From Bradyrhizobium jicamae (lineage in GTDB: Bacteria > Pseudomonadota > Alphaproteobacteria > Rhizobiales > Xanthobacteraceae), in the NCBI RefSeq assembly GCF_018130215.1, contig NZ_JAFCKQ010000004.1:124001-188000 (forward strand): DNA of 64,000 bases, in the 5' to 3' direction. A program made the position numbers and the translations under genes. How positions within the stretch are numbered: the first letter of the stretch is position 1; every line of letters begins with the position of its first letter. Below are positions 57,804 through 59,388 of the stretch, piece after piece. The notes under the pieces were generated by a model. It saw nothing but the letters and a program-made list of their open reading frames with translations, was not told the origin of the DNA and did not search any database.

Positions 57804-58277
57804 CTGATTTGCCCGACGGCGCAAGGGGCGCGCATAAAAAGATTTCGGTTTATACGAAGTACAGATCAGTGTATGAATCTGCCGTCCCGCCCGATGCGAG
57901 GGGCGAGCGCACGTCACGAACGCGCGGCGGGATGCGGTGGACGCCGAGGTGCATACGACGAACGCACCGAGGCGGACGGCGAAATCGTGCAGGCCTGACG
58001 CCCTAGTGGCAGGTGTCCTGTCAGCAAGAGACCAAGGTCTCTTGCTGACAGCGGTGACAAGAAAGCCCAGTCTCACCGGGGAGAGTACGTATAAGCCGTA
58101 AACCATCGCGCAGGGAAAGCCGGAGTCTCCGGTTACACCTGTGGTCCTACCCCCGAGCTACCTCTGTTGCTCGGGGCCCATGGGTGCGATCGGCACCCGG
58201 CTTTCCCTGCGCCCTCAGCAAGACGAGAGGGCGGAACGAAACGCAAGCCTCGGACAAATCATGTCGCGAGAACGCGG
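57804..58277 (+). repeat. 475-bp structured dispersed repeat, copy B
   Basis: Counterpart of 1772-2246. It has the same 16-bp stem GCGCAGGGAAAGCCGG (58108-58123 with 58197-58212), the inner hairpin CCCCGAGC/GCTCGGGG (58151-58158, 58169-58176), the upstream hairpin GTCAGCAAGAGAC/GTCTCTTGCTGAC (58020-58032, 58037-58049) and the end hairpin CGCCCTC/GAGGGCG. Stem sequences differ from copy A but remain complementary, which points to selection for structure. Strand is by convention. Confidence 0.85.
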
Positions 58278-58311: not shown

Positions 58312-58337
58312 GTCGTCCCGGCCTGCGCCGGGACGGC
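58312..58337. repeat. Short palindromic repeat (GTCCCGG / CCGGGAC)
   Basis: Arms 58315-58321 and 58328-58334. It lies 35 bp after repeat copy B, as the relative at 2269-2294 lies 23 bp after copy A, so the two elements may travel together. Confidence 0.65.
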
Positions 58338-58413: not shown

Positions 58414-58428
58414 TGTTATAATATAACA
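58414..58428 (+). promoter_or_regulatory. Zur-box-like operator with embedded -10 (TGTTATAATATAACA)
   Basis: A perfect 15-base palindrome (7-bp arms around one base) in GC-rich DNA, ten bases before the first gene of the zinc operon. The longer GTAATGTTATA half matches what I know of alphaproteobacterial Zur sites. It contains TATAAT (58417-58422), so bound Zur would cover the -10 element and repress the operon when zinc is ample. The transcript leader would be only about ten bases, and no ribosome site is seen before the ATG. Confidence 0.8.
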
Positions 58429-58437
58429 CTCATCGCC

Positions 58438-58629
58438 ATGGCCCATACGCATTCCCACCCGCACCCGCACCCCCACTCCCACGCCCATCCCCATGAGCAC
58501 AGCCACGCGCCCCACCCAGCCCAGATCGCGCCGTGGTCGATCCTGCGGATGCCGGTTACCGCCCGCCTGGCGGCGGCTGCGGCGGTCAGTGCCTGCCTGT
58601 GGGGCGTGGTTTGGCTGGCGATGAGGTAA
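58438..58629 (+). CDS. 63-residue His-rich small membrane protein heading the zinc operon
   Basis: The first 27 residues contain twelve His, mostly in alternating His-Pro and His-Ser pairs (MAHTHSHPHPHPHSHAHPHE). A single membrane helix follows at about 42-62 (ARLAAAAAVSACLWGVVWLA). It is the first frame after the Zur-like box and ends 3 bp before the ABC ATPase gene. A membrane-tethered zinc buffer or delivery site for the importer is the natural reading; it is too short to resemble ZIP or CDF transporters. Confidence 0.8.
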   Translation: MAHTHSHPHPHPHSHAHPHEHSHAPHPAQIAPWSILRMPVTARLAAAAAVSACLWGVVWLAMR

Positions 58630-58632
58630 GAC

Positions 58633-59388
58633 GTGGCTGCGCTCGTCACATTCCGCGATGTCACCCTCGGTTATGACCGCCATCCGGCGGTGCATCACCT
58701 CAATGGCGAGGTCGAAGCGGGCGCGTTGCTGGCCGTGATCGGCCCGAACGGAGCCGGCAAGTCGACGCTGCTCCGCGGCATCGCCGGCGTGCTCAGGCCG
58801 CTGTCGGGTGTCATCGATCTCGACGGGCTCCATCACAGGGATATCGCCTATCTGCCGCAGACATCAGACATCGACCGCAGCTTCCCGATTTCGGTGTTCG
58901 ATTTCGTCGGCACCGGGCTGTGGCGCGCAACCGGTTTCTTCGGCGGCATCGGCCAGGCCGCGCGCAAGCGGATCCTGGCTGCGCTCGCCGCGGTCGGCCT
59001 CAACGGGTTCGAGAACCGCCCGATCGGCACGCTCTCGGGTGGCCAGATGCAGCGCATGCTGTTCGCCCGCGTGCTGTTGCAGGACGCCCGCCTGATCGTG
59101 CTCGACGAGCCGTTCAACGCGATCGACGCCAAGACCACCGCTGACCTGCTGGGGCTGGTGAAGCACTGGAACAGTGAAGGGCGCACGGTGCTGGCGGCGC
59201 TGCACGACCTCGACATGGTCCGCAACAATTTTCCGGAAACGCTGCTGCTGGCGCGCGGCCCGGTGGAATGGGGACCGACCGCGGAGGCGCTGACGCCGGA
59301 AAACCTCACGGTCGCAATGCGGATGTGCGAGGCATTCGACGATACGGCCGCGGCCTGCGCCGCCGATCCGCGCTCGCGGGCTGCCTGA
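58633..59388 (+). CDS. znuC: Zinc/manganese ABC transporter ATP-binding protein
   Basis: A 251-residue ABC ATPase. Walker A is GPNGAGKST, the Q-loop region reads IAYLPQTSDIDRSFPISVFD, the signature is LSGGQMQRMLFARVLL, Walker B is LIVLDEPFNAID and the H-loop AALHDLDMV. The start is GTG at 58633. Together with the permease and binding protein it forms a cluster A-I (ZnuABC/AztABC-like) metal importer. The Zur-like operator and poly-His partners argue for zinc. Confidence 0.9.
   Translation: MAALVTFRDVTLGYDRHPAVHHLNGEVEAGALLAVIGPNGAGKSTLLRGIAGVLRPLSGVIDLDGLHHRDIAYLPQTSDIDRSFPISVFDFVGTGLWRATGFFGGIGQAARKRILAALAAVGLNGFENRPIGTLSGGQMQRMLFARVLLQDARLIVLDEPFNAIDAKTTADLLGLVKHWNSEGRTVLAALHDLDMVRNNFPETLLLARGPVEWGPTAEALTPENLTVAMRMCEAFDDTAAACAADPRSRAA

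Follow-up and report, generated by a model that had tools for sequence, protein, structure and literature searches.

Two copies of a dispersed repeat lie in the window analyzed here (64,000 nt of the Bradyrhizobium jicamae genome), and the family to which they belong is apparently a large family of structured RNAs, present in dozens of copies and not yet described. Many of its copies occupy positions, with a fixed orientation, that are common to species, and the copies retain a fold on one strand, do not encode protein, exchange sequence as mosaics and have few close neighbors. The best-supported interpretation is a conserved structured RNA, predicted from covariation that goes beyond shuffled and slid controls, and we consider it very probable that the copies are RNA genes, with transcription inferred in the absence of expression data. 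The complete explanation that we favor, a family of structured RNA genes homogenized by gene conversion and perhaps acting locally on the chromosome, is offered tentatively, as we doubt it slightly more than we believe it; its final element, a local action on the chromosome given an RNA gene, concerns an inferred function and falls somewhat short of an even chance. Such a family would be a large RNA family of dozens of copies in a well-studied genus of soil and nodule bacteria that are nitrogen-fixing symbionts.

The window copies and their predicted structure

Copy A (1772–2246) and copy B (57804–58277, 474 bp as given) are both oriented on the + strand and share 82% identity over query positions 1–474 (blastn, E 9e-122). 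The first-pass annotation had described this same-orientation pair; the pair is real, but its count of two was a large undercount, since the same genome (G000; 8.55 Mb, 135 contigs) yielded at least 40 long blastn matches at 80–100% identity among the best 40 of 145 candidates. The predicted RNA of copy B spans 57882–58271 on the + strand (~390–400 nt from stem P1 to the 3' hairpin, resting on the fold z-score and covariation), and that of copy A spans 1852–2239, also on the + strand. Against 100 dinucleotide shuffles, the fold z-scores were −7.6 for copy B and −5.4 for copy A, while the − strand of copy B also folded (z = −5.8), as long inverted repeats are expected to do.

The architecture is built around a 16-bp outer stem, GCGCAGGGAAAGCCGG/CCGGCTTTCCCTGCGC, which is identical in both copies as originally reported. 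Its arms pair 58108–58123 with 58197–58212 in copy B and 2076–2091 with 2165–2180 in copy A, where an inverted-repeat search places them inside a 19-nt pair. The resulting + strand domains (58108–58212, supported by inverted repeats and covariation, and 2076–2180) enclose an inner hairpin that reads CCCGGTGC/GCACCGGG in copy A (2120–2127 with 2137–2144) and CCCCGAGC/GCTCGGGG in copy B (58151–58176), again in agreement with the initial description. The upstream hairpin was correctly given as CAGCGAG/CTCGCTG in copy A, whereas the 13-bp stem assigned to copy B proved to be a perfect 16-bp stem (58018–58033 with 58036–58051); this variable hairpin (58018–58051, + strand) is substituted by other hairpins in other copies. 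Further + strand elements of copy B are the 5' strand of P1 (57883–57891, partner at ~57926–57933), with two-sided pair changes at several positions in 93 aligned copies, the 5' strand of P2 (GCGGTGG, 57934–57940), forming a long-range helix with CCATCGC at 58103–58109, and the 3' hairpin CTCGGACA..TGTCGCGAG (helix Pl, 58249–58270), found both as a consensus helix and in the fold of copy B.

The structure alignment used 107 non-redundant copies, with less than 85% identity to one another across the 3' 330 nt; the anchor was present in 216 of 240 extracted copies. Its consensus energy was −196.8 kcal/mol on the + strand vs −160.9 kcal/mol on the other strand, and its helix cells comprised 7557 Watson-Crick, 1086 G-U, 228 A.C, 627 other and 132 gapped pairs, with at least one two-sided pair change in 11 of the 12 predicted helices. 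The P2 helix (GCGGTGG with CCATCGC or CCATTGC), which bridges ~170 nt, had 539 Watson-Crick, 111 G-U and 1 A.C among 651 cells; P1 had 112 G-U vs 11 A.C; and the variable hairpin showed two-sided changes at all 12 pairs, with 52 A.C and 196 other combinations among 1284 cells. Since an A.C pair is the G-U pair of the opposite strand, the large excess of G-U on the + strand indicates that the conserved molecule is the + strand RNA, although the structure was predicted under + strand rules and the count is somewhat biased in that direction.

Shuffling controls supported the earlier inference of selection on a folded molecule. Across 34 diverse copies, 96.4% of 1053 pair cells were standard (89.7% in shuffles, 41–49% in slid structures), 65 cells had changed on both sides vs 17.9 in shuffles, a number reached by none of 500, and the covariation score was 0.258 vs 0.132 shuffled, with 0/500 as high. 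An alignment of 17 sequences including other families gave 94.4% paired cells and a score of 0.381 vs 0.190 shuffled (0/500), bearing in mind that it includes sequences found by the model and is biased towards the structure. Over both tests, nine of ten measures were matched by 0/500 shuffles and one by 1/500, with slid structures far lower. The 5' part of the copy in G084, another genus of the same family, lies outside the model and shows the same GAGGGGCG..GATGCGGTGGACGC as the Bradyrhizobium copies. In 12 of the 15 loci L075–L089 (not in L080, L081 or L086), the RNA is longer, with an extra ~115-nt domain before the GCGGACGG helix.

Coding potential and known RNA families

The absence of a common protein frame, noted at first pass from the two copies, extends to the family as a whole, as each of the six frames is open throughout in merely 8–13 of 107 copies. 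Gap lengths modulo 3 were distributed as 1936/11942/2980 for 0/1/2 (16858 gaps in 1500 random pairs), without reading frame conservation, and five open reading frames over the window copies had no Pfam or NCBIfam match above cut-off, the best being DUF2332 (E 0.03). A protein-coding repeat was thus ruled out by gap lengths, broken frames and the lack of a Pfam or NCBIfam family.

A known RNA family was likewise dismissed, since the Rfam covariance models match neither the window copies nor the distant relatives. None of the 4227 families of Rfam 15 reached its gathering score in four loci, the best sub-threshold match over copy B was mir-2545 (E 2.9), and the RNA region of the distant relatives had only weak, chance-like matches. 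Glycine and TPP riboswitches were seen near distant relatives (L368:3096–3185 and L369:9003–9120), outside the RNA. A search of the open-licence literature did not find a description of the family, and on these two grounds, the lack of an Rfam match and of a description in that literature, we refer to it as a new structured RNA gene family, one whose arrangement in the genome is unusual.

Copy number and distribution

Allowing one mismatch, the 16-base core GGTTACACCTGTGGTC has 81 sites in G000, of which 75 are exact, against 0 for the backward control; 64 distinct stretches were extracted from its loci. Because many of these core sites are located at contig ends, one broken copy can be counted as two sites. 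The element interior holds many of the draft contig ends of G000, which indicates that the repeat breaks assemblies. A second core pattern, also with at most one mismatch, was found at 57 sites in G345, 44 in G019, 40 in G031, 12 in G004 and 10 in G010; the patterns used for G000 and its relatives are similar but non-identical, and divergent copies may be missed in G004 and G010. All 57 copies of G345 are on its 9.80-Mb contig C2, with none on the other ~0.6 Mb.

When copy B was used as a blastn query with the best 10 candidates scored per genome, 33 of 36 genomes of the genus, its own included, matched at E ≤ 0.001, while G007, G030 and G033 had no match and neither did any of 24 genomes from other families of the order. 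In named genomes, a core pattern was present in at least 117 stretches, and among the 80 listed, 76 were titled Bradyrhizobium, the other 4 being metagenome assemblies under less specific names. A covariance model of the core (R1, built from 34 sequences) matched 14 of 297 genomes of the order, nine of them in the genus itself; the remaining matches were in G084 (same family; 7 matches among 9 scored), G577, G604 and G668 (family f14) and G726 (family f35). G577 and G604 had one match each, and 5 of 8 genomes of family f14 had none with 150 candidates scored per genome. Judged by these model matches, two further families of the order harbor weaker relatives, which are single-copy where closely checked.

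Matches at greater distance call for caution. Judging by its sequence, the G668 match probably stems from contamination. With a second model (R2) run against 385 genomes of the class under strict filters, with 7 candidates scored each, only G000, G021 and G1060 matched, and the G1060 matches, from another order, are probably contamination because their flanks are Bradyrhizobium-like (L380 86%, L383 77%). Plasmid (72,556) and phage (50,697) records gave no matches, and carriage by plasmids or phages was rejected as far as these collections go. A core pattern was found on two viral contigs (L261 and L262); the flanks of L261 resemble Bradyrhizobium chromosome loci, and those of L262 had no match in the same comparison.

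Shared positions and exchange between copies

Both window sites are shared with relatives. At site A, the element adjoins the same right-hand gene in G363, G345 and G441 and also the same left-hand gene in G363 and G345, a 3' remnant is present in G327, and the element is missing in stretches from G317, G003, G389, G324, G316 and G474. Site B carries the element in G317, G327 and G363 and a 3' part of it in G345; the element is missing there in G003, G389, G004 and G264. Genome-wide, 30 of the 57 G345 copies share at least one flank (≥280 nt) with a G000 stretch, none in opposite orientation.

Despite these shared positions, positional counterparts are no more alike than other copies. With six G345 copies of mean identity <0.70 left out, 18 flank-matched pairs had a mean identity of 80.3% vs 80.1% to other copies (0.787 vs 0.793 before outlier removal), while their flanks were 86% identical; none of these pairs ranked first and the mean rank was 0.51. 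Identity was 83% within a genome and 80% between genomes. Pairwise identities correlated weakly between thirds of the element (0.03–0.32) and strongly between odd and even columns (0.76 and 0.82), which marks the copies as mosaics, and in two G000 copies (L006 and L025), the left flank corresponds to that of one G345 copy and the right flank to that of a different one. Concerted evolution by recombination between copies predicts just such equal likeness of counterparts and non-counterparts, mosaics and joined flanks.

The two sides of the element behave differently. Among 197 copies with both flanks available, the 3' flank was conserved in 100 pairs, the 5' flank in 26, both in 17 and reversed flanks in 0, with 105 copies having a 3' flank match and 41 a 5' match. 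Conservation of the 3' neighbor between genomes was thus about four times as frequent as that of the 5' neighbor. Over 10 site pairs, long left synteny resumed 0.4–16 kb away in 5, amounted to only a 196-nt match in 1, and did not resume within 18 kb in 4. The promoter side is where neighbors change, an asymmetry without a good explanation. The copies look like recombination points shaping these genomes, under either a functional or a selfish reading.

Genomic setting and spacing

The copies are mostly intergenic, with 9 of 171 copies with usable flanks overlapping an open reading frame predicted by a codon-usage gene caller. Their orientation is not clearly tied to flanking genes: excluding unknown neighbors, 35 copies run along and 45 against co-directional genes, 45 lie between convergent and 23 between divergent genes. 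No recurring neighbor protein stood out, the biggest cluster comprising 14 of the 892 proteins, from as many of the 267 sites, and a partner gene in cis was dismissed for this lack of recurrence. A runs test of orientation along the chromosome gave nothing, and in G345, 36 of 57 copies point along replication as judged by local GC skew, a weak bias (two-sided binomial 0.06).

Spacing was examined on the complete chromosomes of G345, G019 and G031, where only 5 of 141 gaps were below 40 kb, as compared with 25.3 expected under uniform placement and 21.5 with ±150 kb jitter, and 0 of 5000 simulations was as low under either model. Below 60 kb, 15 gaps were found vs 36.0 (uniform) and 31.6 (jittered) expected, 8 between copies of the same orientation and 7 of opposite orientation. 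The commonest gaps were 80–100 kb in G345 and 100–120 kb in G019; the overall gap spread was not below random in these two genomes (CV 0.96 and 1.0) because of a few very long gaps. Gaps of 0.6–1.0 Mb in G345 may be symbiosis islands. In G000, 34 within-contig gaps had a mean of 76 kb and a CV of 0.54. The deficit of short gaps cannot be created by random missing of copies, though no other repeat served as a control.

Promoter-like sequence and element ends

A promoter-like sequence occupies a fixed place just before stem P1. In copy B it reads TTTATA-17-TATGAA (57849–57877, + strand), a weak form whose position is conserved in the alignment and which has strong forms in relatives; the corresponding window form, TTTATC-17-TATGGA, is also weak, and a promoter scan of copy B found none. 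The scan did find a strong TTGACA-16-TATATT in L370 (0.1 expected), and TTGACG-17-TATACT (L073), TTGACC-17-TATATC (L076) and TTGACT-16-TATGTT (L087) were recognized by eye. The motif GGCAAATCA surrounds the promoter-like sequence and has three sites in the window, all within copies A and B, vs 0.46 expected, with 1 of 100 shuffles reaching three.

As regards MITE- or IS-like features, an imperfect inverted repeat lies near the ends of the window copies, and among the proteins beside copies no transposase or other family recurred. In copy B, the left arm TGATTTGCCCGA (57805–57816) is complementary to the right arm (58250–58261) at 11 of 12 positions, and in copy A the repeat is weaker (1774–1784 with 2218–2228, 9 of 11). 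The right-arm motif was present in 19 of 39 G000 copies, 25 of 48 G345 copies and 14 of 129 copies from other genomes and is not general across genomes. The 5' ends of copies in G000 and G345 fall into two types: 37 copies have CACTGATTTGCCCGACGG, inverted relative to the promoter motif, and 35 have CCGACGGGCAAATCA, in direct orientation. A target-site duplication gave no peak in either group and was dismissed for these 72 copies, although the true element ends are uncertain; the highest 4-mer scores in this search (up to 17/35) fall within the element's own bases. No precise empty site was obtained in relatives, because these are just ~78–89% identical in the matched stretches.

Proposed role and alternative explanations

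Under the favored explanation, each copy would be a gene for a highly structured non-coding RNA of ~390–480 nt, transcribed on the + strand under the control of its own promoter. Other families of the order have a related RNA gene, in single copy where closely checked, and a second genus within the same family has several copies. In Bradyrhizobium, it would have been amplified to ~10–60 intergenic copies per chromosome, and gene conversion between copies would have led to their uniform sequence. That the RNA is made is inferred, and so is its action: most simply, it would stay near its gene and take part in folding or marking chromosome segments, a role proposed for nucleoid-associated RNAs, as the deficit of close neighbors suggests something done locally by each copy. 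The boldest extension, an RNA-based domain system in which the chromosome is marked about every 70–110 kb by RNA genes acting in place and helping to divide or fold it, is a speculation that we ourselves doubt; if the spacing is functional, it would offer a direct handle on how RNA may organize a bacterial chromosome. Against the favored explanation stand the promoter of the window copies, which is weak and was not found by scan, the lack of transcription data, and a spacing analysis without a control repeat in which the overall gap spread is not below random in G345 and G019. The three genomes of the genus without a blastn match and the unexplained asymmetry of the flanks also count against it. 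A copy number ranging from 81 core sites to 10 does not fit a strict requirement for one copy per 100 kb, and the 10–12 sites in G010 and G004 argue against a strict need for even marking.

Three options had been left open at first pass, namely a non-coding RNA family, a protein-binding DNA site and a non-autonomous mobile element; the first is now best supported, the second unlikely, and the third remains a rival for the spread of the copies. The inverted repeat near the ends of copy B, seen also in a subset of the G000 and G345 copies, hints at mobility and moved our assessment slightly towards a mobile element and slightly away from the favored explanation. A selfish, non-autonomous element with a structured RNA, moved in trans by an unidentified enzyme and spaced by target immunity rather than function, is in our view somewhat unlikely. 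Dispersed copies of variable number between related species, incomplete copies at certain sites (3' parts in L267 and L272) and a scarcity of short gaps whatever the relative orientation of the neighbors (below 60 kb, 8 same and 7 opposite), as immunity predicts, would all fit it, as would the imperfect inverted repeat of 12 nt close to the two ends of copy B, with a right arm in 19/39 G000 and 25/48 G345 copies; that arm, however, is found in merely 14/129 copies of other genomes, and duplicated target sites were not seen in the 37 and 35 copies. The non-recurring neighbor proteins and the lack of matches in 72,556 plasmid and 50,697 phage records also speak against such an element, as do old positions common to species with fixed orientation, and the confinement of all 57 G345 copies to one 9.80-Mb contig with none on the remaining ~0.6 Mb. 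Were the repeat selfish after all, it would represent a mobile element carrying a structured RNA of a novel type.

A trans-acting RNA, similar to 6S RNA or rRNA, could instead require many copies for dosage, with gene conversion homogenizing them and recombination purging close copies. We regard this as unlikely, even though it would account for the fold kept across diverse copies (96.4% of cells paired), the concerted evolution and mosaics, the flank combinations of L006 and L025 (as after crossing-over between copies) and the weak bias along replication (36/57 in G345, 0.06). Single matches in two genomes of another family and the 10–12 sites in G010 and G004 indicate that a high dosage is not generally needed, and a purge by deletion removes same-orientation close pairs only, whereas both orientations are equally rare. 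The proposal that the repeat is a DNA-level site, either a cruciform or a protein-binding array with incidental RNA potential, can draw on the long perfect inverted repeats and on the promoter-proximal motif with its three window sites vs 0.46 expected, but we find it hardly credible: a cruciform is blind to the difference between G-U and A.C, yet the counts are 1086 vs 228 overall, 111 vs 1 in P2 and 112 vs 11 in P1, P2 spans ~170 nt, and the promoter-like sequence is fixed in place before P1.

Comparison with known systems

The nearest precedent for the local chromosome action of the favored explanation may be, by analogy, the naRNA of Escherichia coli. There, naRNA4 from REP325 is a nucleoid-associated RNA that provides a precedent for RNA in chromosome condensation, and it resembles the present family in being a non-coding RNA from a repeated palindromic intergenic element (PMC6907758). 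REP325 is a repetitive extragenic palindrome, whereas the present family is a ~400-nt multi-domain RNA with a promoter-like sequence and dozens of dispersed copies. Within Bradyrhizobium, a published account describes Br-REP1 and Br-REP2 as intergenic palindromes of 20 to ~40 nt at ~50–200 sites, forming stem-loops at the RNA level, and mentions an unnamed "larger repetitive element" with data not shown (PMC5082802). The printed Br-REP1 and Br-REP2 strings did not occur in the window, even allowing 3 mismatches, or in any of the 97 G000 and G345 copies compared, and their presence inside the element was dismissed to that extent. REP and BIME sequences, as short palindromes of 20–60 nt or arrays, differ from the 390-nt multi-domain fold of the element.

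Ribosomal RNA operons are multicopy RNA genes that are kept alike by gene conversion and serve as rearrangement points, as is proposed here for the repeat family, which differs in its far higher number of copies, its deficit of close neighbors and its lack of an Rfam match. HEARO and IscB omega-RNAs and group II introns are large structured RNAs in dispersed copies, again like the repeat family; unlike these and retrons, the repeat has no Rfam match and no recurring neighbor protein, with the neighbors not all named. Target immunity of the Tn7 or Mu type would likewise give few close neighbors, and the deficit of close insertions is indeed seen, though other explanations predict the same; in contrast to Tn7 and Mu, the repeat showed no target duplications and no recurring neighbor protein beside its copies.

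Sequences adjoining the window copies

A REP-like palindrome lies just 3' of copy B (58312–58337), with a similar one 3' of copy A (2269–2294), and REP-like palindromes were seen directly 3' of many copies. Excluding contig-end cases, sequence in common with other copies was found in 24 of 37 right flanks and in 0 of 37 left flanks. Further downstream of copy B, between it and a putatively ZnuC-like ABC-type ATPase gene at 58633, the perfect palindrome GTTATAATATAAC (58415–58427; 0 expected by shuffles) resembles a Zur box, and a small His-rich open reading frame begins near 58440.
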